Shown piece by piece: positions 6,636-21,814 of a stretch of 58,350 bases of DNA. Position numbers and translations under genes: made by a program. The first letter of the stretch is position 1. Each line of letters opens with the position of its first letter. Source of the DNA: Lysobacter sp. ISL-50 (GTDB taxonomy: Bacteria > Pseudomonadota > Gammaproteobacteria > Xanthomonadales > Xanthomonadaceae); NCBI RefSeq assembly GCF_018612875.1, contig NZ_JAGGRI010000028.1:1-58350 (forward strand), given 5' to 3'. The notes beneath the pieces are model-generated. The model ran no database searches and was not told where the DNA came from. It saw only the letters and a program-made list of their open reading frames with translations.

Positions 6636-7295
6636 TTATTCGCGGCGCTTGCGCGGCTTGTCGCGGCCGCGCTTGGCGACGCTGCCGGTGCGCAGCGCAT
6701 CGTCGAGTTCCATGACACCGTCGCCGCTCATCTGTTCGATCCAGGTCAAGGCATCGACATAGGCCAGGAACTGCTGCAGATAGCCGGGCGACAGCTCGCG
6801 CATCAGGGTGAGCGAGCGATGCACGAGCCGGCCGGAGTTGAGCGGGCCGGCATCGCCGGGCGCCTGCCGCAGGGATTGCCGCAACTGACTTTCGGCGCGG
6901 AGCCGCGACCAAACGGCGCGAAAATCTTCCAGCGCGGCAAGCTGCGGAAACGCCACACCCTCGCCCACGCCGAAGGCGCTGTCGCGCGCCGCCGTCTGCT
7001 GCGCGAGGTAATCGATCAGCCCGCCCATCGCGCTGCCGCGGGCATCGCCCGCCGCCGTGTTTTTCCGCGCAGCGCGCTTGAGATCGCCGGCATACGCCTG
7101 GATCAGCTGCGCCAAACGCGCATCCGCAAGCCGCCGCGCTTCGCCGTCACGGCCGGCGGCGCGGCGCTCCAGCGCGTCGATACGATGAAAACGCACGCGG
7201 TCCAGGCGATCGGCGCCCTGCTCGCGCCAGGCATCGATCTGCGCCCGTGCATCGGGCTGGACGCGTTTGCGCGCCAGGGTCGGATTACGGCTCAC
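6636..7295 (-). CDS. DUF2894 domain protein, last gene of a stator-like block
   Basis: A 219-residue soluble, Arg/Ala-rich protein. It begins with a helical region containing DARAQIDAWREQGADRLDRVRFHRIDALERRAA, and its C-terminus RGRDKPRKRRE is strongly basic. This matches the DUF2894 family, which is found next to DUF3348, DUF802 and OmpA genes in beta- and gammaproteobacteria. The start is a GTG six bases after the OmpA-like stop; no in-frame ATG fits there. The role is unknown. The fixed neighbourhood implies it works with the membrane pair upstream. Confidence 0.8.
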   Translation of the reverse strand: MSRNPTLARKRVQPDARAQIDAWREQGADRLDRVRFHRIDALERRAAGRDGEARRLADARLAQLIQAYAGDLKRAARKNTAAGDARGSAMGGLIDYLAQQTAARDSAFGVGEGVAFPQLAALEDFRAVWSRLRAESQLRQSLRQAPGDAGPLNSGRLVHRSLTLMRELSPGYLQQFLAYVDALTWIEQMSGDGVMELDDALRTGSVAKRGRDKPRKRRE

Positions 7296-7301
7296 GACGC
7301 A

Positions 7302-7934
7302 TCATCCCGACTTGGACGGCTTCGGGATCGGCGCGATTTCCACGCGCCGGTTGCGCGCCCGGCCTTCTTCGTCGGCGTTGGAACTCACCGGCTGCTCGGA
7401 GCCGAATGCGGCCGCGAACACCGACGAGGAATGCACGCCCGCGGCGACCAGGGCGCGGGTCACGGTCAGGGCGCGCCGCGCCGACAACTCCCAGTTGTCG
7501 GCGAATTGCGAATTGCCGTCGCGCACCTGGCGATCGTCGGTGAAGCCGCTGACCATCAGGATTTCATCGCGCGCCTGCAGATAATCCGACAGCGGCCCGG
7601 CCAGGCTCTTGAGCAGCTCGCGGCCTTCGGGCTGCAGCTGATCGGAGTTCAACGCGAACAACACGCTGCCGCGAATGCCGATACGGCCGTCGACCAGGGT
7701 CACCCGTCCGCTCGCCAGCGGCACCGCCAGCGCCTGCTCCAGCGACTTGCGCCGCTGCGCTTCGAGGCGGCGCTGCTTGACCTCCTGGTCGAGCCGATTC
7801 GACAACTGCATCTGCACACCGAGCACGCCGACCAGGATCAGCACGAACACGCCCAGCAGCACCGACATCAGGTCGCCGAAGGCGGCCCACACCGGTGTCG
7901 CCGACTCGGCGTCGCCGTCGATGTCCATGCTCAT
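7302..7934 (-). CDS. MotB/OmpA-like peptidoglycan-binding stator partner
   Basis: A 210-residue inner-membrane protein. Residues about 16-40 (WAAFGDLMSVLLGVF and onward) form one transmembrane helix with Asp21 at its start, the position of the proton-binding Asp in MotB and ZorB. A short helical linker follows (residues 42-70). The OmpA/MotB domain includes FALNSDQLQPEGRELL, VSGFTDDR, LSARRALTVTRAL and GRARNRRVEI. It should anchor to peptidoglycan. Its start overlaps the DUF802 stop by four bases (ATGA), as expected for a two-subunit complex made in fixed ratio. Confidence 0.88.
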   Translation of the reverse strand: MSMDIDGDAESATPVWAAFGDLMSVLLGVFVLILVGVLGVQMQLSNRLDQEVKQRRLEAQRRKSLEQALAVPLASGRVTLVDGRIGIRGSVLFALNSDQLQPEGRELLKSLAGPLSDYLQARDEILMVSGFTDDRQVRDGNSQFADNWELSARRALTVTRALVAAGVHSSSVFAAAFGSEQPVSSNADEEGRARNRRVEIAPIPKPSKSG

Positions 7935-10123
7935 GCCGCCTGCGCTCCGGCCGCGGCCGGCGGCTGCGCCAACTGCTGGATGTCCTGAATGATCTGCTTC
8001 TGCGAGAGCATGCTCAGGTCGATGACTTCCTTCGCCTGCGCCACGTAGTACGCCAGTTGCTCGTCGCTGCGCGCGAGCGACTTGTCCAGCGCGGTCTCGA
8101 CCCCTTGCAGGCGCGCGGTCAGCAATTCGTTCGACTCGCCGAACTGTTGCACGGCCGCGGCGAAGGCATCGCTGAGGCTGGCCACCTCGATCGCGCCGAC
8201 GCTGATCTGCGCGGCGGCGGTGCCGAGCTTGCCGGTCTCGGCCTCGATGTGATCGGTGAAGCGGGTGCCGACGCGATCGAGCAGATCGGCCGAGGTGACG
8301 ACCAGCGCATCGACCGCGACGCGCTGTTCGGTGGAGGCGTGATTGACCGCGCCGAGCAGGGTTTCCAGCGTCGCCAGCAGGCGGTTGCGTTCGTCCAGCA
8401 TGGCGGTGTCGCGGACCATGCTGTCGGACAGCTTCTGGCGCAGTTCGGCGACGACTTCGGCCGCGGCCTTGGGCGCTTGCGAAGCCGCGTCCAGCAGGCG
8501 CGAAATCTCCGCGATCGTGTCCTGGGCCTGCGCCTGCGACTGCGCGGTGATTTCCTGCGCGGTGCGCGCGAGCGTGTCGCAGATCTCGCGCTGGGTCTGC
8601 GCGGCCTGCTCGCCGCTGTGCTCCCAGCGCTCGCCCAGGCTCGCCGCCATCGAATCGAAGGCGCCGGTCCACGCGGCCAGGCGTTGTTCGTCGCGCGATT
8701 CCAGCGTCGCCTGCAACTGCGCATGCGATTGCTCGGACGTGCGGATGAGCGAGGCGGCATGGGATTCGAATGTCGCCGCCGCCGCGGCCAGCGCCTGTTG
8801 ATTGCGCGCGGCCATGGCTTCGTTGGCGCTCAGTTGCTGCGACAGCGCCTCGTTCCACGCCTGCGCCGCCGCCAGCTGCGCCTGCTGATTCTCCGCCGCC
8901 ATGTCCTGGTGCGCGCTCAACTGTCGCGACAGCGCGCTATCCCACGCCTCCACCGCATGGCCGGCGGTGGTGTCGAAACGCGCCGACACCGTGTCCAGCA
9001 AACCGGCGGCGCCTTGATCGAAGCGCGCGGTGAATCCGTCCAGGGTCTTGCCCAGGTCCTGCGCCAGCGCTTCGTTGCAGCGGCGCTGATCGACCAGCGC
9101 CTCGCTCCAGATTTCGGCGACGCGGGTGGTGGTGGTGGCGAAACCGGCCGACAGGCCGTCCATCTGTTGCTGCACCGCGCCGCTGACCGTGGCCTGCAGC
9201 GAACGCGTTTCGTCCGCGATCGCCGCCATCGTGGTCTGCATGATCGGCTGCAACGCCGCGCCGGCCACGCGCGCGCTTTCGCCGATGCTGTCCTGCAACG
9301 ATCGCTGCACCGACGCGGCCAACTGGGCGAACACCGCTTCGGTCTTGTCGTGGAATGCGTCCTGGCGCGCCGTCTGCCGCTCGTGCGCGAGCAGGTTCTG
9401 GCGCTCCATCGCCGCGGTCATCTCCTGCAGCCGATCGACCAGCGCCGGCATCATGTCGGCCTGCCGTTGCAACAGCTTGAAGGCTTCTTCGCGCCGATGC
9501 GTCTGCGAGTGAGCGCGCAGCGTGGTCGCGATGGCGACATCCAGCCGTTGCGCCGCCTGCCCGCGTTCGCGCCGGCTCAGCGCCGACAGCAGGCCGAGCA
9601 TCGCCGAGGCGGCGACGCCAGCGATGGACGTGCCGAAGGCGAAGCCGAGTCCGGCCACCGGCGCGGCGATGGATTCGCGGATCGCCTGCAGGTCGGCGGC
9701 GCTTTCCAGCGCCAGCCCGGTGCCGCGCAGCGTGGTCATCATGCCCAACAGGGTGCCGAGCATGCCCAGCAGCACCAGCAGGCCGACCAGATACGGCGTC
9801 AACGCCGGCGCCGGCAGCGCCACGCGCTCGCCTTCGATGCGCAGGCGCGCGGCATTGCGCAGCGAGGGATGCAGGCGGCCGAGCCACTCGCTCAGATCCG
9901 CCGGCGGCGCCGACAACCCGGCCAGCGCGCGTTCCAGCGTGGCGGTGGCCTGCCGATAGCGATGCAGTTCGAGCCCGCCCGCGCAATAACAGGCGCCGAT
10001 CAACAGCGCGACCGACAGCGCCAGCGTGTTGGTGCCGACATAACCCGCGCCGACCCAGCACACGGCGATCAAACCTACGACAAAGACCGCGGGATAAAGC
10101 AGATTTCTGAACATGTTATCCAT
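7931..10123 (-). CDS. DUF802 protein: MotA/TolQ/ExbB-like with a long helical tail
   Basis: A 730-residue protein. Transmembrane helices fall at about residues 10-29, 31-50, 108-130 and 153-183. The last two carry the MotA/TolQ/ExbB-like sequence GLLVLLGMLGTLLGMM and VAGLGFAFGTSIAGVAASAMLG. Residues 184-730 are a very long, Ala/Gln/Glu-rich helical region with repeated patterns such as AWNEALSQQLSA, predicted to be a coiled coil projecting from the membrane. It matches DUF802. With the MotB-like neighbour it should form an ion-driven complex. The ATG at 10121-10123 overlaps the DUF3348 end; another ATG lies at 10114. Confidence 0.85.
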   Translation of the reverse strand: MDNMFRNLLYPAVFVVGLIAVCWVGAGYVGTNTLALSVALLIGACYCAGGLELHRYRQATATLERALAGLSAPPADLSEWLGRLHPSLRNAARLRIEGERVALPAPALTPYLVGLLVLLGMLGTLLGMMTTLRGTGLALESAADLQAIRESIAAPVAGLGFAFGTSIAGVAASAMLGLLSALSRRERGQAAQRLDVAIATTLRAHSQTHRREEAFKLLQRQADMMPALVDRLQEMTAAMERQNLLAHERQTARQDAFHDKTEAVFAQLAASVQRSLQDSIGESARVAGAALQPIMQTTMAAIADETRSLQATVSGAVQQQMDGLSAGFATTTTRVAEIWSEALVDQRRCNEALAQDLGKTLDGFTARFDQGAAGLLDTVSARFDTTAGHAVEAWDSALSRQLSAHQDMAAENQQAQLAAAQAWNEALSQQLSANEAMAARNQQALAAAAATFESHAASLIRTSEQSHAQLQATLESRDEQRLAAWTGAFDSMAASLGERWEHSGEQAAQTQREICDTLARTAQEITAQSQAQAQDTIAEISRLLDAASQAPKAAAEVVAELRQKLSDSMVRDTAMLDERNRLLATLETLLGAVNHASTEQRVAVDALVVTSADLLDRVGTRFTDHIEAETGKLGTAAAQISVGAIEVASLSDAFAAAVQQFGESNELLTARLQGVETALDKSLARSDEQLAYYVAQAKEVIDLSMLSQKQIIQDIQQLAQPPAAAGAQAA

Positions 10124-10853
10124 GTGGATTGGTGGCGAGGGCGGCAAGCAGGCCCTGCGCCGGTTGAAGGCGAACATCCAGTTCGGCGAGCAATACGTCT
10201 TGCATGTCCTTGCGAAACACATCCGGCCAGGCGTCGCCGGCCGCGGCCGGCGCCTCGCCCGGCACGCGCGCGTCGTCGCTGCCGTCGCGCGCGCTCTGAC
10301 GCAAGAATTCGAAGCGTTCCGCGAGCAGCACCGGCGCCACCGACAGCAGGCTGCGCTCGCGCCGGCTCAGCGCCCGTTCCATCACCGCGTCCACGGCGGC
10401 GAGGCGGGCCAGATCGGCCGACTGCGCGCTCAGCTTCTGCCGCAGGCGCTCGCGCAAGCGGCCGACGCCGGCTTCCATCGTCTGTTGCAGGAACAGATAG
10501 CGCTGGCGAAAGAACGCGTAATCCAGGCCGTCGTCGGCGTCGGTTGTCGAGGAAGCCGGCGCGCGCGGCGGCGCGGCGAACGCCGCATCGCCGACGATCG
10601 CGCCGGTCAGCGCAGCGCGCACGCGCGCGCATTCGTCCGCTTCCGCGGCGCTGTCGATGCCTTCGTCGTCGAGTGCCGCCGCCGGCCTGTCCAGCACGGT
10701 GGACAGCGCAACGGCATGAGTCCAATCGATCCAGTGACTCAGCTGATCCGACAACGATCGCGTGGGCTGGGGCAGGTCTGCGGCCGTCAGGCGAGCGAGC
10801 GTGCGGATGAACGTCGGGCCGCGAACCGTGGCCCGTCGAGGTGCTTGCATCAT
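10116..10853 (-). CDS. DUF3348 protein, first gene of the stator-like block
   Basis: A 245-residue soluble protein. Its N-terminus reads TFIRTLARLTAADLPQPTRSLSDQLSHWIDWTHAVALSTVL, and it contains DYAFFRQRYLFLQQTMEAGVGRLRERLRQKL, typical of DUF3348. It is the promoter-proximal gene of the four-gene minus-strand block, and its end overlaps the DUF802 start by eight bases. There is no clear ribosome site before the paired ATGs at 10853 and 10850. Function unknown. The 370 bases between it and lanM hold no gene I can support. Confidence 0.8.
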   Translation of the reverse strand: MMQAPRRATVRGPTFIRTLARLTAADLPQPTRSLSDQLSHWIDWTHAVALSTVLDRPAAALDDEGIDSAAEADECARVRAALTGAIVGDAAFAAPPRAPASSTTDADDGLDYAFFRQRYLFLQQTMEAGVGRLRERLRQKLSAQSADLARLAAVDAVMERALSRRERSLLSVAPVLLAERFEFLRQSARDGSDDARVPGEAPAAAGDAWPDVFRKDMQDVLLAELDVRLQPAQGLLAALATNPHG

Positions 10854-11222
10854 TACTACTGGCTAAAAGATCGCCATTTTACACGTGCGGCCGCCGCCTG
10901 CCGCTTGCCGGGCATCGCGGCGGGCTCGGCGGCGGCTGGACATTCACGAATCTAAGCTGATTCAGCTGCTTCACAGTCGCGCAAACCCTTGCGGGCGCGG
11001 GCTATCGTGCCTGCGGCGGCGGCCGGCTTGCGACGGGTTCGTCAGGCGAAACCGGCCTGCAAAGGCGTCCGCGGGCGGCGAATTTCGCAGCCCTTGCCAA
11101 ACGCCATCGATTTGTGCGGGCTCCCGCTTATGACGACCCGGCCGCCACGATCGCGCGGATCGCGACGGCCGGACCCTCCCCTATCGGTCACGATGATTCG
11201 ATCGCGCCGCGAGCCGCCGACG

Positions 11223-13994
11223 CTAACTCAGCGTCAGCGGACAGAACCCTCGCGATGCGCCGCCAGCGGCCGGCCGCGCCGGCAAATGCGCCAGGCCCGC
11301 GCCGGCCAGACCGACCATCAAGCCCAGATTGCCGCCGTCGTGCGTCCAGCCCGCCCGATATTCATCGACGGCGAACGCGGGCGCATCCATGTCGAAATCG
11401 AAGCCCAGCGCGGCGGCGACCTTGGCCAGCGCCAGATGCACGCCGGCGCTGCCGTGACACAGCGAATCGTCCTTCAGCCGTCCGAACCATTCCACGCTGC
11501 GCGCGAACGCGGCGCGCACGCAGTCGCGCTGCCACGGCTCCAGCGCGTCCCAGGCCTGCGCGCGCGCGAGCAGGAAACCGGCGGCGCCGTTGCACCAGCC
11601 CAGCGAGTACTGCGGCTGCGCCTCGCGCGTGTCCGGCCACAAGCCGATATCGGCGTCGAACAATCGGTCTTCGCGGCGCAGCGCGTGCAAGGCCAGTTCG
11701 TTCATGGCGGTGTCGCCGAGCGCTTGCGCCAGTTGCATCAAGGCGAAGGCGATGCCGCTGCCGCCGTGGGCGAAGCCGGTCACGCAACGATCGACGCCGT
11801 GCAGCCACCACTCCGGGCCGTCGTCGCCGGGCCGCGACGCGGCGATCAGACGTTCGCCGAGACGCCGCGCGACGGCCAGCAGGCGCGTGTCGCCATCGAG
11901 ACGATGCAAGGCCAGCGCGACCAAGGCGATGCCCGCGGCGCCGTCGATGATGTCGAAGCGATCCGCGCTCCATTGCGGCTCGCGCGCCAGGAAGGCTTCG
12001 ATCGACAACCGCCGCAGTTCCTCGTCGCCGCGTTCGACCGCGGCTTCGGCCAAGACCAGGATCAATCCTTCCATGCCCGAATACGCGCCGCTGCCGAGCA
12101 TCGCGCTGCGCTCGACCAGGATGCGCCGGCCGGTCGCGATCAGGCGTTCGGTCAAGGCGTCCACGCCGGCATCGGCGCTTGGCGGATGCCGGCGCGACAG
12201 GAAGGCGAGGATGCCACCGAGTCCGGTGTACAGGTCCGGTCCCATCGGCATGATCGCGAAATCGCCGCCGGGCGTGCCGGCCGGAGGGCTGTACGTCCAC
12301 AGCACGCTGCCGTCGCCCTCGCCGCTCACCGAGCCCTCGTCCAGCGCCGCGGCCACCGATGCGGCGAGATCGCCGTGCGCATGCCCGGCGCAGCCGGCGC
12401 CACCGTGGCATCCCAGCGCCACCGCGACGTAGCTCAGTTGCCGCGTGATCCACGAAGCATCGGCGAAACGATCCAGGCGCTCGCGCACCAGTTGCAGGGC
12501 CGAGCGCTGGAAGAAACCATTGATCGTGCCGGACGGACTGTGCAGATCGCAACCGTCCAGCCGCGCTTCGAAATAGGGAATGTCGAACTGCAGTAGCTGC
12601 AGGCGCTCGCTGTCGTAGAGATGGCGCAGGAACGGCTTGCTCGCTTCCTCGCGGCGCAACTTGAGCAGCAGCGCATCGGTCGCGGCCGGTTCGGCCAGGG
12701 CCGGATGGGTGGTTTCGGCCAGGAACAGCCCGTACAGATAGGTGTGGCGCATGATCTGCCGCGAACGCAGCGAGGCGGCATCATCCAGCAGCGCGGCGAC
12801 CTCCCGCGCCTGCGCCGTCAACGCCGCAGCAGCGGAGCGGTAACCTTCTGCGAACGCATCGAAGTAGGCCGCGAACGCCGCCGGTTCGCCGTCCACACGC
12901 GGCACCGGGCTGTCGATGCGGATCGCATCGTGCACCCGCGACAGGCGCATGCTCGCGGTCTTGGCGTCCACCGCGACCTCGCGCGACACCGGCGCGGCCA
13001 CGCGGTCGCCCTGCGCCGCGCCGGAGAACACGCCCTCGCGCGTGCGCCGCAACGACACCACGCCGACGCCGAGCACCGATTCGCCCAGGCGCCGGTCCAG
13101 CTCGTGCTCGGCGTCCATGATCGTCACCGCCGAGGCCGCCTGCCGGTCGATGCGCGCGGTGTTGGTGAACAAGGCCTCGACATCGACGAAGAACGGCCGG
13201 CCCTGCGCATCGGTGACGATGTTCTCGAAGTGGATGTCGGTGCCGCACAGCAGGTGCGCCACCGCGGTGCAGGTGCCGAGCGAACGATAGAAGCGCGTGG
13301 CCGCCGGCTCGCCCTGCGCGCCGCCGCCGCGCACGCCGAGCTGCCAGCCGTAGTGTTCGCGATCGATCGATTGCAGCACGGCGATATCGGCATCGGCCAT
13401 GCGCTGCAGGCGCGCGTACAGCAAATCCAGGCCCAGTCCGCGCGGTTTGTAGTACAGATCGAAGGCGTCGAAGCGGTAACGGATGGTCGCCCGCGCGCCG
13501 CGATGCGGATCACCCTGGCCGAACTCGACGCGCAGCGGCGCCAGATCGGGCCGCAGGCCGAACGCCTGCAACGCCTGCGCATCGGCCGCCAGATGGCTCA
13601 GGTGATCGCGAAGGAATTCGACGAAACCATCGCAGAAGCGCTGCGCGCGTTGATACAGGACGGCGTAGCGCTGGCGCAGATCGCGCGCGCGCTCGCCCTC
13701 GGCGATGGCCTGGACGAAGGCGACGAACACCGGATCGCCGACCGCGGTGGCCGGCTTGGCCTGCGGCCCGGGCGCGGCGCCGGCATAGCGATTGAGCTCG
13801 AACACGAACACTTTCTGGAACATCCAGCACAGCCGTTGCAACAGGTACTCGCCGGCGCCGTCGATCAACGCCGGATGCAGGCCGGCCGGCACCGCGCTGG
13901 CGGCGACGCGTTCGACGATCACGCCGCGCAAGGCCTCGGCTTCCTCGCGGCAGATCGCGGCGATGTAGTAACGATCGAAATCCAGACTGCTCAT
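11223..13994 (-). CDS. lanM: Class II lanthipeptide synthetase LanM
   Basis: A 923-residue bifunctional enzyme that dehydrates Ser/Thr and then adds Cys thiols to form lanthionine rings. The N-terminal half is the kinase-like dehydratase (DUF4135): FDLYYKPRGLGLDLLYARL at 179-197, GTDIHFENIV at 251-260 and DVEALF at 271-276. The C-terminal half is a LanC cyclase with repeated GxxG-type helices. All three zinc ligands are visible: Cys801 in WCNG, and Cys846-His847 in LCHG. Both activities therefore look intact. It is the last gene of the operon, two bases from the DsbA-like gene and about 7.4 kb from the precursor. Confidence 0.93.
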   Translation of the reverse strand: MSSLDFDRYYIAAICREEAEALRGVIVERVAASAVPAGLHPALIDGAGEYLLQRLCWMFQKVFVFELNRYAGAAPGPQAKPATAVGDPVFVAFVQAIAEGERARDLRQRYAVLYQRAQRFCDGFVEFLRDHLSHLAADAQALQAFGLRPDLAPLRVEFGQGDPHRGARATIRYRFDAFDLYYKPRGLGLDLLYARLQRMADADIAVLQSIDREHYGWQLGVRGGGAQGEPAATRFYRSLGTCTAVAHLLCGTDIHFENIVTDAQGRPFFVDVEALFTNTARIDRQAASAVTIMDAEHELDRRLGESVLGVGVVSLRRTREGVFSGAAQGDRVAAPVSREVAVDAKTASMRLSRVHDAIRIDSPVPRVDGEPAAFAAYFDAFAEGYRSAAAALTAQAREVAALLDDAASLRSRQIMRHTYLYGLFLAETTHPALAEPAATDALLLKLRREEASKPFLRHLYDSERLQLLQFDIPYFEARLDGCDLHSPSGTINGFFQRSALQLVRERLDRFADASWITRQLSYVAVALGCHGGAGCAGHAHGDLAASVAAALDEGSVSGEGDGSVLWTYSPPAGTPGGDFAIMPMGPDLYTGLGGILAFLSRRHPPSADAGVDALTERLIATGRRILVERSAMLGSGAYSGMEGLILVLAEAAVERGDEELRRLSIEAFLAREPQWSADRFDIIDGAAGIALVALALHRLDGDTRLLAVARRLGERLIAASRPGDDGPEWWLHGVDRCVTGFAHGGSGIAFALMQLAQALGDTAMNELALHALRREDRLFDADIGLWPDTREAQPQYSLGWCNGAAGFLLARAQAWDALEPWQRDCVRAAFARSVEWFGRLKDDSLCHGSAGVHLALAKVAAALGFDFDMDAPAFAVDEYRAGWTHDGGNLGLMVGLAGAGLAHLPARPAAGGASRGFCPLTLS

Positions 13995-13995
13995 G

Positions 13996-14640
13996 TCATC
14001 GCGCTTCCGTCTTGGGTGCGTTCAAGGCTGCTTCGTAGCGGCCGAAGGTCCACGGCTCGGGCATCAGCACGCGATCGACGACCACGGTCGGGACCGAGGA
14101 AATGCCGTGCACGATCGCGCGGTAACGCTGGCGTTCGACCCGTTGCGCGATGTCGGGTCGCTGCATGCACGCGCTCAGTTGCGCCGCGCCGAAACCGTCC
14201 GCGGGCGCGCCCGGAATCAAGCGCCGCGCCAGCTCCGGGGCGGCGAGGCCGACCAGATCCTGGCCGTAGACACGGTCGTACAAGGCCTTGGTGTCAACGC
14301 CCGGGCGTTCCTGCAAACAGGTCACCGCATGCGCCAGTTCGGTCGAACCGTCGCGGATCGGAAACGCCAGCACGCGGATCTTCGCCTGCCCGCCATCGAC
14401 GAAACGCGCCATCAACTTGGGCAGCATCTCGGCATGGAAACGCTTGCAGGCCGGACATCCGTAGTCGGTGACCAGGACGATTTCGTGCGCCGCATCCATG
14501 CGGCCCAGCACCGGCAAGTCGTCGATCTGCATCGTCTGCAAAGGCTCCGAGCGCCCGGCCGCCATCAACACGAAACCCAGCGATACCGCCAGCAACACCA
14601 CCAACGCCGACGCCCCGATCCAGATCCACGGTCCTTTCAT
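13996..14640 (-). CDS. Membrane-anchored DsbA-family thiol oxidoreductase
   Basis: A 214-residue thioredoxin-fold protein. Residues 5-27 form one N-terminal anchor, leaving the rest in the periplasm. The active site GCPACKRFH has Cys62 and Cys65, and the cis-proline loop is SSVPTVVVD (Pro184). Extra Cys are at 108 and 158. The overall form fits DsbA/DsbC/DsbG-like oxidoreductases that make or reshuffle disulfides. GAGGTG precedes the ATG. Its place between the exporter permeases and lanM suggests it acts on the Cys-rich peptide or keeps its thiols usable; that role is inferred. Confidence 0.88.
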   Translation of the reverse strand: MKGPWIWIGASALVVLLAVSLGFVLMAAGRSEPLQTMQIDDLPVLGRMDAAHEIVLVTDYGCPACKRFHAEMLPKLMARFVDGGQAKIRVLAFPIRDGSTELAHAVTCLQERPGVDTKALYDRVYGQDLVGLAAPELARRLIPGAPADGFGAAQLSACMQRPDIAQRVERQRYRAIVHGISSVPTVVVDRVLMPEPWTFGRYEAALNAPKTEAR

Positions 14641-14649
14641 GTTTTCACC

Positions 14650-15975
14650 TCAGTGATGATGCAAACCGGCCACGGGGTCCAATCGCGCCGCGCGCGCCGC
14701 CGGCCACACGCCGGTCAGCAGGCCGACCAGCAGCGCCGTGACAATCCCGATCAGGCAACCCGAACCGGATACGGTCGGTTCGCCGAAGTAACTCGACGTG
14801 GCGGTGATCGCCCATGCCGCCGCCGCGCCCAGCATCACGCCGAGCACGCCGCCGAAGCCGGTGAGGATCACCGCCTCGGCCAGGAATTCGAGGAAGATGC
14901 CGCCGCGCGAGGCGCCGATCGCGCGCTTGACGGCGATCTCGCGGCGGCGCGCATTGACGCCGGACAACATCACGTTGCCGATGCCCAGCGCCGCCACCGC
15001 GAACACCACCGCCATCAACAGGAACAACCCGGCGCGCACGCTGGCCAGGGTGGTGTCGAGGTAGCTGCGCAGGCGTTGCGCGGTGACCACGATGAAGTCG
15101 TCCTCGCCGCGCGCGCTGTGGCGGTGCTTGCGCAACTCGGCGCTGAGGCGGCGGCCGATCGCGTCGATGTCGTCCTGCCCGGCGAAGCCCGCGTGCAGTT
15201 CCAGATCGCTGCGGCTGCCGTCGCTGTCCATCGCCCGTACCAGGCCGATCGGCGCGATCACCAGGCGTTCGAAGTCGAATCCCAACGCGCTGCCGGCGCC
15301 CTTGACCACGCCGCTGACGCGGCAGCTGCGCCCGGGCAAGACCAGATCGCGGCCGATCAGCGCCGACGCGCCGCCGAGCTCCGCCGCCAGACTGCGTCCG
15401 GCCAGGCATTGCCGGCCGCCGCCGCCGCGCCAGTCCTCGCGCGAGGGCCAGGCGCCGGCGACCAGTTCGATTTCGCCCAGCGCGAAGTAGTCCAGGGTGG
15501 TGCCGTACACCGCCGCGGTGCTTTTGCGCGAGCCCAGCGCGATCGGGTTGTTGAACGCGCCGTAGCGCAGGAACGGCGCCACCGGCCGCTGCGGGAAGGC
15601 GCGCGAGACCGTGCGCAGGTCCTGCTCGGACAAGCGGTTGGCGGTGCCCAGCAGCAAGGATTCGTACGACGGATCGGCGCGCACGATCACCACTTGCCGG
15701 CCCATCGATTCGAACGAGCGCACCAGGGTGCGCGACAAGCCTTCCGACAGCGAGGCGACCGACACGATGCCGGCCACGCCCAGGGCCACGCTCAGCATCG
15801 CCACCGCCGTGCGCACCGGAAAACTGCGCAACTGGCGCAGCGCGGCGTGGAAGGCTTCGCCGAGCACGAACCACGCGCCCGGCGCGGACGCGGGCAGGAT
15901 CGATGCGCCATCGGCGCGTGCCTGCGCGGCGGCGATCGCGGTGTCGTCATGGCCGGGGCGCGCGCCTGCGGTCAT
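14650..15975 (-). CDS. MacB/FtsX-type ABC permease (second subunit)
   Basis: A 441-residue permease with the MacB arrangement: one N-terminal transmembrane helix (in FPVRTAVAMLSVALGVAGIVSVASL), a large periplasmic domain, then three C-terminal helices of the FtsX domain. The FtsX region includes GNVMLSGVNARRREIAVKRAIGASRGGIFLEFLAEA. The start is the ATG overlapping the stop of the preceding permease (ATGA). A cytoplasmic extension of about 40 residues precedes the first helix. It should pair with the adjoining permease as a heterodimer energised by the ATPase gene. Confidence 0.88.
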   Translation of the reverse strand: MTAGARPGHDDTAIAAAQARADGASILPASAPGAWFVLGEAFHAALRQLRSFPVRTAVAMLSVALGVAGIVSVASLSEGLSRTLVRSFESMGRQVVIVRADPSYESLLLGTANRLSEQDLRTVSRAFPQRPVAPFLRYGAFNNPIALGSRKSTAAVYGTTLDYFALGEIELVAGAWPSREDWRGGGGRQCLAGRSLAAELGGASALIGRDLVLPGRSCRVSGVVKGAGSALGFDFERLVIAPIGLVRAMDSDGSRSDLELHAGFAGQDDIDAIGRRLSAELRKHRHSARGEDDFIVVTAQRLRSYLDTTLASVRAGLFLLMAVVFAVAALGIGNVMLSGVNARRREIAVKRAIGASRGGIFLEFLAEAVILTGFGGVLGVMLGAAAAWAITATSSYFGEPTVSGSGCLIGIVTALLVGLLTGVWPAARAARLDPVAGLHHH

Positions 15976-17183
15976 TGGCTGCGCAACACGTTTTTCGGAT
16001 CTTTGCGCGCCGCCTGCCAGGCCGGCGCCAGCGAGAACGCCAGCACCAGCGCGGTGGTCGCCATCGCCACCAGCGCGCAGGCTTGCCAGCCCAGCACCGG
16101 CGCCGAATCCAGGCGCAAGACGTTCTTGAGCGCGCCGGCGGCGATGCGGCCGAGCAACAGGCCCAACGGGATCGAGATCAGACACAGCAGCAGCGCTTCG
16201 CACACGAACATCCACGCGATGTCGGCGCGGGTCGCGCCGATCGCGCGACGCAGGCCGATTTCGCCCGAACGCTCGTCGGCGCTGAGGAACATCATGTTCA
16301 TCACGCCCAGCGCGGCGACCAGCGAGGCCAGCAGCGAGATCCACGCCACGGTGCGACCCTGGCTCTGGGTCGCGCCGCGCGCGCTGTCCAGCAGCGCCTG
16401 CTTGGCCTCGATGCGGAAATCGTCCGCATCAAAGCGGCCGCCGTACTTGCGCAGCAACAGCGCGGACAATTTCGCGCGCAGGCGCTCCATGTCGGCGCCG
16501 GCGGCGGCCTTGACCACCAGCCGGCCGCCGTCGTCGCCGGGCTTGACCAGCGCGCCGGCGCCGGCCAGCGGCAGGAACACCGCGTCGTCGTTGGACACGA
16601 ACTTGCCCGGCTCGTCGGTCGCCGCCAGCACGCCGCCGACCACGTACCACTGCCCGCCCACGCGCAGGAATTTTCCCACCGGCGCGCGCCCGGGAAACAG
16701 GGCCGCGGCGATGCGCGCGCCGAGCAGGCAGCGCTTGCCCGATCCGGCGCCGCGGCCGAGCCCGCGGCCCTGCCCGACCTGGATGCGATCGATATCGAAG
16801 TAGTCCTCGCTCACCGCCAGCACCTGCGTCACCTGGCGCGTGCCCGGCCCTTCCAGCAAGGTCGCCGCGCCGGACAGCTCCTGCACCAATGCCGCGCGCG
16901 CCACCCATTGCGGCATCCGTTGCAGGTCCGACAGATCGCTCAGCGACGGCACGAAGCCGCCGCTGGCGGTGGACTGGCCGCGGATCACCAGGGTGTCGTT
17001 GCCCAAGGTCTCGAAGCGCCGGCCGAGCACCTGCGCCATGCCCTCGGCGATGCTGGCCACGGTCGAATACGCCATCACCGCCAGCACGATCGCGCTGGCG
17101 CACAGCACGGTCGGACGCGGACTGCGCGCCAGCGAGCGCGCGGCGTCGGCCACACCCGCCAGCCAGCGGCGCAAGCCGTCCAT
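15972..17183 (-). CDS. MacB/FtsX-type ABC permease (first subunit)
   Basis: A 403-residue permease of the MacB/FtsX family. One helix lies near residues 27-50 (TVLCASAIVLAVMAYSTVA), followed by a periplasmic domain of about 220 residues and three helices from about residue 280 to the end. The conserved GVMNMMFLSADERSGEIGLRRAIGATRADIAWMFVCEA motif spans the first of these. It begins five bases after the ATPase stop and overlaps the second permease by four bases. Unlike E. coli MacB, the ATPase and permease are separate polypeptides. Confidence 0.88.
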   Translation of the reverse strand: MDGLRRWLAGVADAARSLARSPRPTVLCASAIVLAVMAYSTVASIAEGMAQVLGRRFETLGNDTLVIRGQSTASGGFVPSLSDLSDLQRMPQWVARAALVQELSGAATLLEGPGTRQVTQVLAVSEDYFDIDRIQVGQGRGLGRGAGSGKRCLLGARIAAALFPGRAPVGKFLRVGGQWYVVGGVLAATDEPGKFVSNDDAVFLPLAGAGALVKPGDDGGRLVVKAAAGADMERLRAKLSALLLRKYGGRFDADDFRIEAKQALLDSARGATQSQGRTVAWISLLASLVAALGVMNMMFLSADERSGEIGLRRAIGATRADIAWMFVCEALLLCLISIPLGLLLGRIAAGALKNVLRLDSAPVLGWQACALVAMATTALVLAFSLAPAWQAARKDPKNVLRSQ

Positions 17184-17187
17184 GCGC

Positions 17188-17877
17188 TCAGGCGGTCGCA
17201 GGCGCAGCGGCGTCGAGCACGCGGCCGTCGGACACCCGGATCGTGCGCTGGCAGCGCTCGGCCACGTGCGGCGCGTGGGTCACCACGATCAGCGTGCGGC
17301 CGTTGGCGTGGATGCGCGCGAATACGTCCAGGACTTCGTCGGAGGTCTTCGAATCCAGATTGCCGGTGGGCTCGTCGGCCAGGATGATGTCCGGCTCGCC
17401 GACGATGGCGCGGGCGATCGCCACGCGCTGGCGCTCGCCACCGGACAATTCGTCCGGACGGTGCGCGGCGCGGCGCTCCATGCCCACTTCGGCCAGCGCG
17501 GCGGATGCGCGCGTGCGCGCCGCGGCGCGCGCCAGCCCGCGATAGCGCAAGGGCAGCATCACGTTCTCCAGCGCCGAGCAATTGCCCAGCAGATGGAAAC
17601 TCTGGAACACGAAACCGATCGTGCGATTGCGAAAGCCCGACAGCGCCGCGTCGTCCTGGCGCTGCACCGGCCGGCCGTGGATGCGGATTTCGCCGGCATC
17701 GGGGGTGTCGAGAAAACCGATGATGTTGAGCAGGGTCGATTTGCCCGAACCCGATGCGCCCATCACCGCGACATATTCGTGCTGCGCCACCTGCAGATCG
17801 ACGCCGCGCAACACCGTCACCTCGGTCGCGCCGAGGCGATAGCTCTTGCGGATGCCACTGAGCTCAACCGCGTTCAT
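17188..17877 (-). CDS. ABC transporter ATPase of the MacB/LolD type
   Basis: A 229-residue ATPase. Walker A is MGASGSGKST near residues 38-47, the Q-loop is VFQSFHLL, the signature is LSGGERQR and Walker B is IILADEPTGNLDS. LADEPTGNLD is characteristic of the MacB/LolD/FtsE branch that drives FtsX-type permeases by mechanotransmission. Its start overlaps the adaptor-protein stop by 14 bases. It should power the two permeases downstream in the same operon. Confidence 0.92.
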   Translation of the reverse strand: MNAVELSGIRKSYRLGATEVTVLRGVDLQVAQHEYVAVMGASGSGKSTLLNIIGFLDTPDAGEIRIHGRPVQRQDDAALSGFRNRTIGFVFQSFHLLGNCSALENVMLPLRYRGLARAAARTRASAALAEVGMERRAAHRPDELSGGERQRVAIARAIVGEPDIILADEPTGNLDSKTSDEVLDVFARIHANGRTLIVVTHAPHVAERCQRTIRVSDGRVLDAAAPATA

Positions 17878-19102
17878 ACGAGATCACGCGCACGCGGGTG
17901 CCCGGCTGCAGCGAGGGTTGGCCCGACGCGGGCACGACGATCAGATCCTCGGCGCTGAGGCCGCGGCGGATTTCCTGGCGGCTGTCGTTGGCCTCGCCCA
18001 ATTGCACCTCGCGCAGGCTGGCGATGCCGTCGCGCACGACCAGCACGGTGCCGGTGTTGCCCTTGCCCGCCGCCGCCGTCGCGTCGCCGTCTTCGCGCAG
18101 GGCCGCGATCGGCACGGTCAGCACCGGCGCGGCCTTGCGGCTGGGAAACTCGACCCGGCAGGTCATGCCGGTGCGCAGGCTGGCGCGGCGGGTGTTGCGG
18201 ATGTCGATCAGCACCTCGTAGCTCGCCGCGCCGGTCGCGGCGGCGCCGTTGCCGCTGCCGGCGGCCGCGCGCGTGGGCGCCATCGACACCGACCGCACCG
18301 TGCCCTGCAACGGCGTTTCGTCGAACGCCGGCACCACCACGTTGGCGATCGCGCCGGGCCGGATCTTCCACACGTCGTATTCGCCGAGCTTGGCGGTGGC
18401 CACCAGCACGCTGGTGTCGGCGATGCGGGCCACGGTCGAGCCGCTGAAACTCAGCGCGCTGGGGACCGCGGTTTCGCCCGCCGACACGTCGATCGACAGC
18501 ACCGTGCCGTCGATCGGCGAACGCAGCAGCGACTTGTGCAGGCTGTCCTGCACTTCGTCCACCAGTGCGCGCTGATTCTGGATGCGGGTGCCGCCCTGGC
18601 GGTATTCGGCGTCGGCCTGGCGATAGGCCGCGCGCGCTTCGTCCAGGTCGGCCTCGCTGACCAACTGTTGCTTGCGCAGCTCGGTGAACCTGCGCAGTTT
18701 GGAGGCGGCCAACTCGCGCGCGGCGCGATTGACTTCGAGCGAAGCGACCTCGCCGTCGCGCCCGGCTTCGCGCTGGGCCAACTGCGCCTCGTACTGCTGC
18801 GAGCGCAGCTTCATCAGCGGCTGGCCGCGCTTGACCTCGTCGCCCTGGCGCACGTAGATCTCCTCCACAGCGCCCAGCACCTCGGCGGTCATCGCCAGTT
18901 CGTTGCGGTACGACAGCGTGCCGTCGGCGAAGATCACCGTCGGCAGCGCGTCGAGTTTCGGATTGACCACCGCCACCGGCGCCACCGATGCGACGGTGTT
19001 GCGCGTCGCCAGCAAGCCCAGCGCCAACACGCACAGCGCCAGCGCGCCGGCGGCGATCGCCAGACGCCGCGGGCGGCGCTCAGGCGTAGACGGGGAGTTC
19101 AT
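17864..19102 (-). CDS. Periplasmic adaptor (HlyD/MacA family)
   Basis: A 412-residue membrane-fusion protein. A basic N-terminus and one helix (residues about 14-33) anchor it. A barrel-sandwich/biotinyl-lipoyl-like region (AEVLGAVEEIYVRQGDEVKRGQPLMKL) flanks a long helical hairpin (AQLAQREAGRDGEVASLEVN through VQDSLHKSL), followed by LLRSPIDGTVLSIDVSAGE and beta-barrel domains. This is the MacA-type order. AAGGAG precedes the ATG, and the start overlaps the lanT end by 23 bases. It would link the inner-membrane transporter to a TolC-like channel, which is not encoded here. Confidence 0.9.
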   Translation of the reverse strand: MNSPSTPERRPRRLAIAAGALALCVLALGLLATRNTVASVAPVAVVNPKLDALPTVIFADGTLSYRNELAMTAEVLGAVEEIYVRQGDEVKRGQPLMKLRSQQYEAQLAQREAGRDGEVASLEVNRAARELAASKLRRFTELRKQQLVSEADLDEARAAYRQADAEYRQGGTRIQNQRALVDEVQDSLHKSLLRSPIDGTVLSIDVSAGETAVPSALSFSGSTVARIADTSVLVATAKLGEYDVWKIRPGAIANVVVPAFDETPLQGTVRSVSMAPTRAAAGSGNGAAATGAASYEVLIDIRNTRRASLRTGMTCRVEFPSRKAAPVLTVPIAALREDGDATAAAGKGNTGTVLVVRDGIASLREVQLGEANDSRQEIRRGLSAEDLIVVPASGQPSLQPGTRVRVISYERG

Positions 19103-21203
19103 GGCGCGATTCTCCTTGCGCGATCCGGCCCAGTTCGTGCACGTGATCGCCCGATTGGATCCATTGGGTGCGGTGGGTCACGATGATCTTCATCCCCGGC
19201 CACTGGCGTAGATGACGCAGGATCGCGCCTTCGGTGGCGGCGTCGATATCGCTGGTGAATTCGTCCAGCAGCATGATCGGCGCGTGGCTGTAGAGCAGGC
19301 GCGCCAGGGCGATGCGCTGGCATTGCCCGGCCGACAGACTCTGGCCGACCGCGACCACCTGGGTCTGATAACCCAGCGGCCAGGCCGCGACTTCATCGTG
19401 AATGCAGGCCGCGCGCGCGCAGCGTTCGATGCGCTCGACATCGGCCTGCGGATCGAACATGGCGATGTTCTGCGCGACGCTGCCGGCGAACAACGCCGGA
19501 TGTTGATTGAGATACGCCACCGCGGCCGCGCCGGCGGCGCCTTCGCGCTCGCCCTTGATGCGGATCTGCACGCTGCCGGCGTCGGGCAGCAACAGGCCGC
19601 CGATGAGTTTCAGCAACGTGCTCTTGCCGCAACCCGAGGGCCCGACGATCACGTTCAGGCCGCGGTCGTCGAAACGCGCGTTCAAATGCTCCAGCACCGG
19701 CGTTCCGGTGCCCAGGTAGGAGAAGCCCAGATCGCGCACCGTCACCTGGCTGGGCTCGTCCCACACCGGCGCCTGGGCGTCGGCCGGCGGCGTCGCGTCG
19801 TCCAGGCTCATCAGGCCCTGGATCGACTCGATGCGGTCGGCGTTGATCCGCACCACCACCAGCTGCATGAAAAACATCTGGATCGCGCGCACCGACGGGC
19901 CGGTCCAGCCGAGCAGGAAGTAGCAATAGAACGCGGTCTGATCCGACAGGTCGATCGACGGAAACGCGACGAACAGCAGCAACAGCGCCGCGATCGGCAC
20001 CACCTTGTCCTGATAGGCGTACAAGGCCTCGAAGATCGCATTGAGCTTGCCGCGCGCCTCCAGCCACTTCTGATGTTCGCCGAAGCGTTCCATCAGGCGG
20101 TCGGCGAAGACTTTCTCTTTTCGGTTGACCTTGACGTCCACCGCCATGGTCAGGGTTTCGGCCAGAGTGCTGTAGTAACCCGAATAGGCCAGCACTTCGC
20201 CGCCGGTCAGGCGCAGCAGGCGCTTCCAGCACAGCACCAGAACCACGGTGGACAGCAAGGTCAAAGCCAGAAACAGCAGCGCGACCTGTGCGCTCTGGAA
20301 TGCCAGCACCGCCAAGGTCGCCACCAGCACGCCCGAATCCAGGATCAGGCCGGTGATGCGCGCGGACAGGAAGTCGCGCACGCCGGAGACCGAATTGACC
20401 CGCGCGATCAGATCGCCGGCGGGCAGCAGCGAGAAGATCCGCAGCGGCAGCCGCAGCAGGCGGTCGACGAAGCGGGTGATCAAGGTTCGATCCAGGCGCA
20501 GCTGGATCAGCAGCGACACTCGCGCGCGCATCCAGTGCGCGGCGACGAACGCCAGCGACAGCACCAGCAATCCCACGCCCAGCCCGGTCGCGCTGCCCTG
20601 GCCGCCGTAGGCCAGGAACGTCACCGCGCGGCTGAGCAACCACGGGAAGGAAATCGTCGTCGCCACGGTCAGCGCGATCACACTGAGCAGGAACAGCCAC
20701 AGCGACCAGTTCTCGCCGAGAAATTCCTTGAACAACTGGCCCAGCGGCGAAGTCTTGGCACCCGCGGGCATGGACGGGTCGCGCTCGGCGCCGATGAACA
20801 CGCCGCTCCACTGCGACTGGAATTCGGCGTGGGCGACGCGGCTTTCGCCGGTGGCCGGGTCCAGCACCGTGACCTCGCCCTCGTCGATGCTGCTGACCAC
20901 GACGAAATGCTCGCGGCGCAGATGCACGATGACCGGCAACGCCACGTGCTTCAGCGCTTCCACGCCGCCGTCGCTGGCCCGCAGTGCGCGCGGACGCACG
21001 CCGCACATGCGCAGGACATCGAGCATTTCCTTGGCCGACATGCCGCGCTGGCTGACCGGGTAGCGCGCCGCCAGCGCGAGCATGGGCATGCGCAACCCGA
21101 GCCCGGACAACAGCATCGAGATACAGGCGTGGCCGCAGTCGGCGGCCGAGGTCTGACTGACGAACTTGGTCCGGGCCGCGCCGCGCCGCGTTGAAGGATT
21201 CAC
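19080..21203 (-). CDS. lanT: Bifunctional lanthipeptide peptidase/exporter LanT
   Basis: A 707-residue peptidase-containing ABC transporter that cuts a double-glycine leader and exports the peptide. The N-terminal C39 peptidase domain has its triad intact: Cys23 in ADCGHAC, His99 in REHFVVV and Asp115 in VLDPATG. A six-helix membrane domain follows (about residues 165-440). The ATPase has Walker A GPSGCGKST near 530, signature LSAGQ and Walker B PIMLLDEFTSDID. The start is a GTG; an in-frame stop lies two codons before it, so no longer form exists. It follows the precursor gene. Confidence 0.93.
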   Translation of the reverse strand: MNPSTRRGAARTKFVSQTSAADCGHACISMLLSGLGLRMPMLALAARYPVSQRGMSAKEMLDVLRMCGVRPRALRASDGGVEALKHVALPVIVHLRREHFVVVSSIDEGEVTVLDPATGESRVAHAEFQSQWSGVFIGAERDPSMPAGAKTSPLGQLFKEFLGENWSLWLFLLSVIALTVATTISFPWLLSRAVTFLAYGGQGSATGLGVGLLVLSLAFVAAHWMRARVSLLIQLRLDRTLITRFVDRLLRLPLRIFSLLPAGDLIARVNSVSGVRDFLSARITGLILDSGVLVATLAVLAFQSAQVALLFLALTLLSTVVLVLCWKRLLRLTGGEVLAYSGYYSTLAETLTMAVDVKVNRKEKVFADRLMERFGEHQKWLEARGKLNAIFEALYAYQDKVVPIAALLLLFVAFPSIDLSDQTAFYCYFLLGWTGPSVRAIQMFFMQLVVVRINADRIESIQGLMSLDDATPPADAQAPVWDEPSQVTVRDLGFSYLGTGTPVLEHLNARFDDRGLNVIVGPSGCGKSTLLKLIGGLLLPDAGSVQIRIKGEREGAAGAAAVAYLNQHPALFAGSVAQNIAMFDPQADVERIERCARAACIHDEVAAWPLGYQTQVVAVGQSLSAGQCQRIALARLLYSHAPIMLLDEFTSDIDAATEGAILRHLRQWPGMKIIVTHRTQWIQSGDHVHELGRIAQGESRHELPVYA

Positions 21204-21403
21204 GTGCTATTCGTCCAGGCAGGAGCCCGCGAGGGGCGCGCAAGCGACCCCGTCCGATCCGCGCCGCGATGGCCGGAAGAATCGGCACGACGACCGCCGC
21301 GCGGGCCGCGCGAATGCGCGTCGCGCTTTCGCGACAGGCATCCGGCGCCGCGCGACGCGTCGGGCATCGCAGCGTGGATCAGGGCTGGGGTCGCAGTCTC
21401 GAA

Positions 21404-21433
21404 GGAGCCGCCCGCTTGCGGCCAGGCGGCTCC
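21404..21433 (-). terminator. Stem-loop between lanA and lanT
   Basis: GGAGCCGCC (21404-21412) and GGCGGCTCC (21425-21433) form a perfect 9-bp stem with a 12-base loop, starting ten bases after the precursor stop codon. There is no clean T-run. In many lanthipeptide operons a partial terminator here keeps precursor mRNA abundant and lets some transcripts read into the processing genes. I infer that role from position and structure. Confidence 0.6.
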
Positions 21434-21443
21434 GGGAAGCCGA

Positions 21444-21635
21444 TCAGCAGTGACCGACACACACCGAGTGGCCGTTGGAACAGCCGCACTCGCCGGTGAA
21501 GGAACAAAGCCAACCGCAACCGCAGACCACCGGCTTACCGCCGAACAACGCTTCGAGATTTTCGTCCGAGAGTTCCTCGGCGAACGGGACCGCTGTCGTG
21601 CTTGGATCCTGGACGAGATCGTGTTGCTGCAACAT
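21444..21635 (-). CDS. lanA: Class II lanthipeptide precursor with Cys-rich core
   Basis: A 63-residue precursor. The ATG at 21633-21635 has AGGA eight bases before it. Residues 1-33 are an acidic leader containing EELSDENLEALFGG, the ELxxL-type recognition element plus the double-glycine cleavage site (Gly32-Gly33) used by C39 peptidases. The core, residues 34-63, has seven Cys (38, 40, 44, 50, 52, 59, 63), three Ser (45, 53, 57), one Thr (47) and six Gly. Ring-forming residues and Cys support a LanM substrate. Cys38, 40 and 44 lie before any Ser/Thr. An upstream in-frame ATG at 21719 lacks support. Confidence 0.88.
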   Translation of the reverse strand: MLQQHDLVQDPSTTAVPFAEELSDENLEALFGGKPVVCGCGWLCSFTGECGCSNGHSVCVGHC

Positions 21636-21715
21636 GGGGAAGTCCTCAGTTTTGACCACGAGCTGATGCGCTGCGTGGGTCGATGCCCCCCTGACTTTCG
21701 ACGTTGCACTTGTTA

Positions 21716-21814
21716 TCACGATGACGTGCGCGGTTCCGAGGCCGTCGTCATAGATCGTTTCGTCATGAGCTTATGACGCTTTTTCGACAGCACTACGTCG
21801 CAGAAAAATCTGCG
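21716..21814 (-). promoter_or_regulatory. Cluster of dyad-symmetric sites upstream of lanA
   Basis: ATGACG or its complement CGTCAT occurs four times in 58 bases: 21721-21726, 21746-21751, 21761-21766 and 21773-21778. These form two inverted pairs; the second is CGTCAT-6-ATGACG. A separate dyad, CGCAGA-AAAA-TCTGCG, lies at 21799-21814. The stretch is AT-richer than its surroundings and sits 80-180 bases before the precursor start, in the 475-base gap shared with a divergent gene. A regulator binding site is likely but no regulator gene is in the cluster. Confidence 0.4.

Follow-up and report, generated by a model that had tools for sequence, protein, structure and literature searches.

Mersacidin-type peptides are among the described systems closest to the one treated here. 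Their lipid II motif is given as TxTxEC and placed in class II precursors only (PMC7268733), CTxTxEC is described as essential for the interaction with lipid II (PMC3857288), and a role has been described for mersacidin rings C and D and Glu17 (PMC9863751). Such peptides are not new in Proteobacteria, since the mersacidin subfamily is listed as including them (PMC11251773); Gram-negative lanthipeptide producers are also known, pinensin being an example (PMC12715929), and the proteobacterial clusters mentioned in one further paper come from myxobacteria (PMC3951391). Mining of 24 Lysobacter genomes returned 72 clusters of class II, and 21 of their 27 unique precursors are DUF6229 (PMC11451712), while other work has proposed the rhodanocins (PMC9576775), listed further unknown class II clusters (PMC9410377) and stated that no lanthipeptide has been isolated from the genus (PMC10745450). 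Here we describe a class II lanthipeptide operon of eight intact genes, running from the precursor gene lanA to the synthetase gene lanM at 11223-21635 on the minus strand of a window of 58,350 nucleotides from the soil bacterium Lysobacter sp. ISL-50 (the whole of the DNA analysed, from contig NZ_JAGGRI010000028.1).

Taken together, our comparisons suggest, with a probability of about 0.5, that the eight genes form a functional operon whose product is a secreted lipid II-type lanthipeptide, with a disulfide closed by a DsbA-like protein and a pump for both export and immunity; the same estimate covers the proposal that lanA represents a new precursor family. The genes with their order and motifs, the conservation, the sequence of Cys and Ser/Thr in the core, and a TolC and a DsbB in the genome are direct observations, from which we infer the ring pattern, the disulfide, the direction of the pump, the lipid II target and the antibacterial role. 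An earlier note on this DNA had read it as a class II lanthipeptide cluster, complete but unusual in its set of genes, which agrees with a LanM above its NCBIfam subfamily cut-off (Table 1), and had not recognised it as a characterised one; neither the family models nor our literature search gave a close match. That search, with most subscription journals outside its reach, found no published description, and the cluster is apparently undescribed. Its precursor may have been counted without description in the Lysobacter survey, where, if included, it would be one of the six non-DUF6229 precursors (PMC11451712). Beyond the earlier note, we observe a near-invariant core, a mersacidin-like motif, three Cys with no Ser/Thr upstream of them, and exporter and DsbA-like genes that are kept in another family.

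The precursor and its conserved core

The leader of LanA ends ELSDENLEALFGG, a double glycine, and is followed by a Ser/Thr/Cys-rich core, KPVVCGCGWLCSFTGECGCSNGHSVCVGHC, with 7 Cys, 3 Ser and 1 Thr. In both the window and G826, a genome from another family of the same order, these residues follow each other as Cys, Cys, Cys, Ser, Thr, Cys, Cys, Ser, Ser, Cys, Cys. The four Ser/Thr are S12, T14, S20 and S24, the downstream Cys are C17, C19, C26 and C30, and C5, C7 and C11 lie upstream of every Ser/Thr. Lanthionine formation usually joins a Ser or Thr to a Cys that follows it, with exceptions such as cinnamycin; assuming this usual ring direction, the four downstream Cys would match the four Ser/Thr one-to-one, and C5, C7 and C11 would have no thioether partner. 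CGC occurs twice in LanA, and His 56 is invariant.

The core segment C11-S-F-T-G-E-C-G-C19 has the general form C-S-x-T-x-E-C-x-C, and the mersacidin sequence holds a C-T-x-T-x-E-C-x-C register. The pattern C[ST]xTxECxC, picked after the peptides were seen, gave six matches in the six frames of 29 loci (586,727 bases). Each match falls in a lanA-type gene, and five of these genes are orthologues. When the pattern was relaxed to C[ST]x[ST]x[DE]C, three matches outside lanA genes were added. One lanA-like gene, in locus L062 of genome G067, carries CTITCEC, an exact match to CTxTxEC.

Conservation of this core far exceeds that of the enzymes. Between the window and locus L040 of G826 the other proteins are 32-51% identical (LanM 37%, MacA 36%, permeases 33-35%, Dsb 32%) and synonymous sites are near saturation, yet residues C38-C59 of LanA, a stretch of our own choosing, are identical at 20/22 positions, the sole exchanges being Phe/Tyr and Val/Ile. 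Counted from the end of the protein, identity is 17/22 over the last 22 residues and 21/26 over the last 26; none of the 7 Cys or 4 Ser/Thr of the core is exchanged. As a control we used 136 non-independent pairs of DUF6229-type loci from the same order. Where LanM identity was below 55% (92 pairs), the last 22 residues were never more than 41% identical, whereas 85% or more was reached by 6/15 pairs at LanM identities of 65-80% and by 8/10 above 80%. At close range, then, DUF6229 cores are conserved as well, and the contrast with lanA lies at long range. Among class II lanthipeptides it is unusual for a core to stay near-invariant while its LanM falls to 37%, and this suggests that the target or ligand is a fixed one. 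At closer range, lanA differs from that of L010 and that of L004 by 14 synonymous and 1 non-synonymous changes each, with LanM about 75% identical. Its synonymous divergence (0.336) falls in the range of the neighbouring genes (0.30-0.47). The identity of the peptide therefore reflects purifying selection on lanA, and a recent import of lanA alone is contradicted by the same figures.

With the E threshold set at 10 and the filters of HMMER in place, LanA matched no Pfam family, and in NCBIfam its sole match was of the leader type, at E 0.029 and below cut-off; we therefore rejected membership in another known precursor family. A DUF6229 assignment fails likewise, PF19740 being unmatched, whereas a control precursor from L011, another LanM locus of the same genome, scores 61.5 bits. 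As to a two-peptide system, a lanA profile found no second precursor in the window (next-best E 0.88), although one with an unlike leader would escape it.

Operon, enzymes and putative export genes

Pfam and NCBIfam profile scans back the role of each gene except the precursor (Table 1). The earlier note had claimed eight tightly packed minus-strand genes, and all eight are present as open reading frames; the tight packing applies to the seven from lanT through lanM, where adjacent genes share bases or have no more than 9 between them, and fails for lanA, which stands 240 bases from lanT. The macA gene directly follows and overlaps lanT, and the ATG of permease 2 overlaps the stop codon of permease 1. 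None of the eight is a LanFEG-type gene, nor is any a regulator or receptor gene. The same eight genes in identical order were found in four other genomes, three of Lysobacter (G009, G001 and G002, the last as L004) and G826 (L040), which argues that the operon is no chance arrangement; a check against Lysobacter genomes, as the earlier note had proposed, thus gives the same order in 4/20, the genome of the window included.

Table 1. Features of the lanthipeptide operon and its flanks in the window
Feature	Coordinates	Strand	Support
lanA, precursor, 63 aa	21444..21635	-	leader/core reading; no Pfam match
conserved stretch upstream of lanA, likely promoter and mRNA leader	21636..21762	-	alignment of four Lysobacter clusters
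hairpin directly after lanA stop codon	21404..21433	-	conserved in four Lysobacter clusters
lanT, C39 peptidase-ABC exporter, 707 aa	19080..21203	-	PF03412 88 bits, PF00664, PF00005
MacA-like periplasmic adaptor, 412 aa	17864..19102	-	TIGR01730 148 bits vs cut-off 94.9
MacB/LolD-type ATPase, 229 aa	17188..17877	-	PF00005 113 bits
FtsX/MacB-type permease 1, 403 aa	15972..17183	-	PF12704, PF02687
FtsX/MacB-type permease 2, 441 aa	14650..15975	-	PF12704, PF02687 (scan used a start lying 12 bases inside the gene)
DsbA-like thiol oxidoreductase, 214 aa	13996..14640	-	PF13462 66 bits
lanM, class II lanthionine synthetase, 923 aa	11223..13994	-	TIGR03897 434 bits vs cut-off 304

LanM joins a dehydratase (PF13575) to a LanC-like cyclase domain (PF05147) and aligns with LicM2 (6st5) over residues 88-900. 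Its translation contains the dehydratase motifs YYKPR at 181, TDIHFEN at 252 and FVDVEALF at 269 and, for the zinc site of the cyclase, GFAHG at 740, GWCNG at 799 and LCHG at 845, in line with the zinc ligands and dehydratase motifs given in the earlier note. LanT consists of C39, membrane and ATPase domains, and its full-length relatives include the bacteriocin transporter 4ry2 and ComA. A full C39 triad had likewise been claimed, and its Cys (ADCG), His (HFVVV) and Asp (VLDPATG) are readable in the translation; LanT would cleave the leader after the double glycine and export the peptide.

The DsbA-like protein has CPAC at 62-65, an invariant Pro 184, and a hydrophobic N-terminus that by eye looks like an anchor and would place the protein outside the cytoplasm. 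PF13462 scores above its cut-off and PF01323 below; BdbD is closest in sequence, BdbD and DsbA are among the nearest solved sequences, and the predicted fold, from a model of moderate confidence (pLDDT 65.5) that suffices for a fold class, is closest to DsbA and BdbD. The protein thus combines a CxxC and Pro loop with a DsbA-type thioredoxin fold. A second pair, Cys 108 (14317-14319) and Cys 158 (14167-14169), is invariant between the window and L040. The genome encodes one DsbB.

The pump consists of an adaptor, a single ATPase and two permeases that differ from each other; either permease matches the orthologues of the other at 28-30%. It is no MacB in the sense of a single ATPase-permease chain, the ATPase and the two permeases being separate genes. 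The adaptor exceeds the TIGR01730 cut-off and falls below that of the MacA equivalog, and the ATPase lies below the cut-offs of the LolD, MacB and DarD equivalogs (NF007826, 230 bits against 966). A candidate TolC partner is encoded in the genome, where one of eight TIGR01844 matches exceeds the curated cut-off.

The hairpin after lanA differs in L040 from that of the four Lysobacter clusters, and could possibly act as a partial terminator or mRNA stabiliser. Within the conserved upstream stretch, GGAAC occurs in each of the four Lysobacter clusters; it resembles the ECF-type promoter consensus and could hint at such a promoter ahead of lanA.

Proposed pathway and its alternatives

In the pathway that we favour, LanM would dehydrate S12, T14, S20 and S24 and form up to four thioether rings onto C17, C19, C26 and C30, so that the C11-C19 segment would contain a pair of overlapping rings of the sort that mersacidin uses to grip lipid II. 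After LanM, C5, C7 and C11 would remain thiols. LanT would then cut past the double glycine and release the peptide into the periplasm. There the DsbA-like protein, the obvious candidate oxidant for three Cys that are barred from ordinary thioether rings, would close a disulfide or form a dimer. Finally, the pump of MacA, ATPase and two permeases would with TolC carry the product over the outer membrane and clear the periplasm of the producer, and would thus provide export and immunity together. There is precedent for the separate steps, as STII reaches MacAB-TolC from the periplasm after DsbA, and MacB-like lantibiotic resistance systems (BceAB) are noted in the same review (PMC5985334). Thiol oxidoreductases are also described as serving other bacteriocins, e.g. 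PedC with pediocin (PMC4919988). Moreover, dsb and Cys content correlate across three lineages, in that the G067 core, with 6 Cys and 9 Ser/Thr, comes without a dsb match in its locus. The product would probably be an antibiotic. The fuller proposition, of a disulfide enzyme dedicated to a lanthipeptide pathway and of a lipid II binder with both thioethers and a disulfide, which has a near-totally constrained core and is expelled by a MacAB-like pump, we put forward only tentatively. If correct, the operon would show a Gram-negative cell making, oxidising, exporting and surviving a lipid II-type peptide. As of 2014 the enzyme for a lantibiotic disulfide had not been identified in gene clusters, according to one account (PMC4018250); a dsb gene kept across two families, with a core in which three Cys lack an upstream Ser/Thr, makes this question directly testable.

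Several observations weigh against this pathway. Seven Cys less four rings leaves an odd number, which obliges us to assume one free thiol, a dimer or incomplete rings, and the lanA family is seen in only two lineages. The first motif Cys of mersacidin-type peptides forms a ring with an upstream Ser or Thr, and the core in the window has none. A mersacidin-type assignment finds no Pfam match of the precursor on which to rest. The strict TxTxEC is absent from the window and L040, which have CSxTxEC with Ser for the first Thr, although a ring should be possible with either residue, both being dehydratable. Judged by eye, the pattern GxxxxTx(S/T)x(D/E)C, as given in PMC3857288, is likewise not matched, owing to the same Ser and a different Gly spacing. 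Mersacidin-type peptides are described as evolving fast relative to their cyclase and slow evolution is linked to class III peptides that are only weakly antibacterial (PMC11251773), a pattern by which the slow core in the window speaks for a role other than antibiosis. The disulfide of bovicin HJ50 is reported to form spontaneously, the dsbA beside bovI not being responsible in that account (PMC4018250).

The pump, too, may serve immunity only. A version of this idea, in which the pump is pure self-protection, the peptide is secreted in one type I step through LanT, TolC and either MacA or an adaptor of the host, and Dsb acts on stray periplasmic peptide, gains from the position of macA, which is the sole adaptor gene of the operon and sits directly against lanT, and from the HlyD-type adaptor and RND pump beside the related cluster of G067, as expected of a replaceable pump. 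We nevertheless consider it unlikely, as the adaptor fits the RND/MacA type and lies well under the type I HlyD cut-off (63.7 vs 208.65), and a Dsb-like gene accompanies the pump in 5/5 clusters (the window and four relatives). Slow evolution could also suit a chemical ligand, and the peptide might be a Cys-rich metallophore or metal buffer with few LanM rings, whose CGC, ECGC and His bind Cu or Zn and which is exported much as the siderophore pyoverdine is exported from the periplasm by the MacB homologue system PvdRT-OpmQ (PMC5985334). Seven Cys, the two CGC motifs and the invariant His would fit; however, the four Ser/Thr are invariant too, each with a Cys downstream, a DsbA-like oxidase would take away the very thiols needed, and Pfam gave no family of metal receptors, regulators or uptake proteins in the 20 open reading frames of the window that were scanned outside the operon (some of them overlapping and not all genes). 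We regard this as quite improbable. Little more probable, to our minds, is a conserved signal or morphogenetic peptide addressed to kin rather than an antibiotic. A core frozen across two families while the enzymes diverged is what such a peptide would display, and slow cores accompany the weakly antibacterial class III peptides (PMC11251773), but the absence of a regulator or receptor among the eight genes, the patchy occurrence in 4/20 Lysobacter genomes at two or more genomic sites, and the lipid II-like motif in the core all speak against it.

Distribution and comparison with known systems

At E 1e-60 or better, relatives of LanM occur in 4/20 genomes of the genus (own included), 4/297 sampled genomes of the family (own, G001, G002 and G067) and 1/369 of the class (own), and at E 1e-30 in 22/250 of the order. 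The precursor as query found 4/297 sampled family genomes. A five-sequence lanA profile returned 2/233 in the family of G826 (G826 itself and G768) and 3/349 in the phylum (own and two others); we rejected G768 (E 0.0075), G1184 (E 0.0086, two internal stops) and G1305 (E 0.007) as marginal matches in chance-like frames after viewing about 1.5 kb around each. For the precursor no plasmid-borne relative was found, and none of the 97 plasmid records that match LanM covers 80% of it, the best-ranked being 25.9% identical.

We compared 25 LanM-bearing loci (L040-L062, L011 and L012) by tblastn at E 1e-4. L040 is the only one with all eight genes in the same order. L062, whose related cluster is at about 7100-11924, has a lanA-like gene, lanT and lanM, and its core includes CTITCECGC; an HlyD-type adaptor and an AcrB-type RND pump follow lanA and replace the MacAB-like module, and macA, the permeases and dsb are unmatched there, although the contig begins little over 1 kb before lanM and a gene may lie beyond its edge. 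The other 23 loci, some of them cut by contig ends, match neither lanA nor macA, either permease or dsb; the matches that some of them give to the ATPase or LanT queries are those to be expected between ABC proteins in general. Seventeen of the 23, including the locus of the query peptide, L011, carry DUF6229-like precursors. The cluster in the window thus differs in kind from the lanthipeptides that are common in the order. Two more LanM genes lie in the 5.9 Mb genome of the window, whose cluster contig is C21: L011 (G000:C25), with a DUF6229 precursor ending CPNGRCYCCI, and L012 (G000:C44), with a possible precursor of no family match.

In the window and G009 the cluster is flanked by a DUF3348 gene and a metallo-beta-lactamase gene. 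The DUF3348 gene is 2.4 Mb away from the cluster in G001 and on another contig in G002, and the metallo-beta-lactamase gene has no match in either at E 1e-20; these differing flanks indicate at least two genomic sites in the genus. No simple empty site was found, the two flanking genes being far apart in G003, G004 and G014, the single-contig genomes that have both and lack the cluster. DUF3348, DUF802 and OmpA-domain genes lie downstream of the cluster at 7302-10853 (minus strand), and DUF3348 has a match in 20/20 Lysobacter genomes. A trimeric autotransporter adhesin of 2941 aa, with an ESPR signal, YadA head and stalk repeats, occupies 37174-45999 (minus strand).

Among known systems, mersacidin, actagardine and amylolysin have in common with the window a LanM, a C39 LanT, a GG leader and C-[TS]-x-T-x-E-C-x-C with its conserved Glu (PMC3857288, PMC7268733). 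The window differs from the mersacidin type in its Ser for the first Thr, its three Cys with no Ser/Thr upstream and the lack of a LanFEG-type or regulator gene among the eight, as well as in its Gram-negative export module, DsbA-like gene, slow core and precursor without a Pfam match. The bovicin HJ50-like lantibiotics are likewise class II, with a putative lipid II motif and spare Cys, a pair of which forms a disulfide in bovicin, but the cluster bovAMTFEGKRI, as set out in PMC5141572, names no MacAB-type module. Rhodanocins and other DUF6229 lanthipeptides share with the window a class II LanM and the order to which Lysobacter belongs; their precursor family differs, and the 17 DUF6229-like loci above have no match to the macA, permease, dsb or lanA of the window. 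The E. coli peptide STII is not known to carry lanthionines. It is, however, a small Cys-rich peptide that takes the route of Sec, a periplasmic disulfide by DsbA and export by MacAB-TolC (PMC5985334), and serves as a comparison of how such a pathway works only; STII enters by Sec, whereas LanT would deliver an already modified peptide, and the pump of the window has one ATPase and two permeases. With MacAB and LolCDE that pump shares the MacB periplasmic domain, the FtsX permease domain and a MacA-like adaptor; it is split as in LolCDE, with one ATPase and two unlike permeases, but has an adaptor in addition, and it scores below the cut-offs of the listed MacB, LolD, LolC/E and DarD equivalogs.

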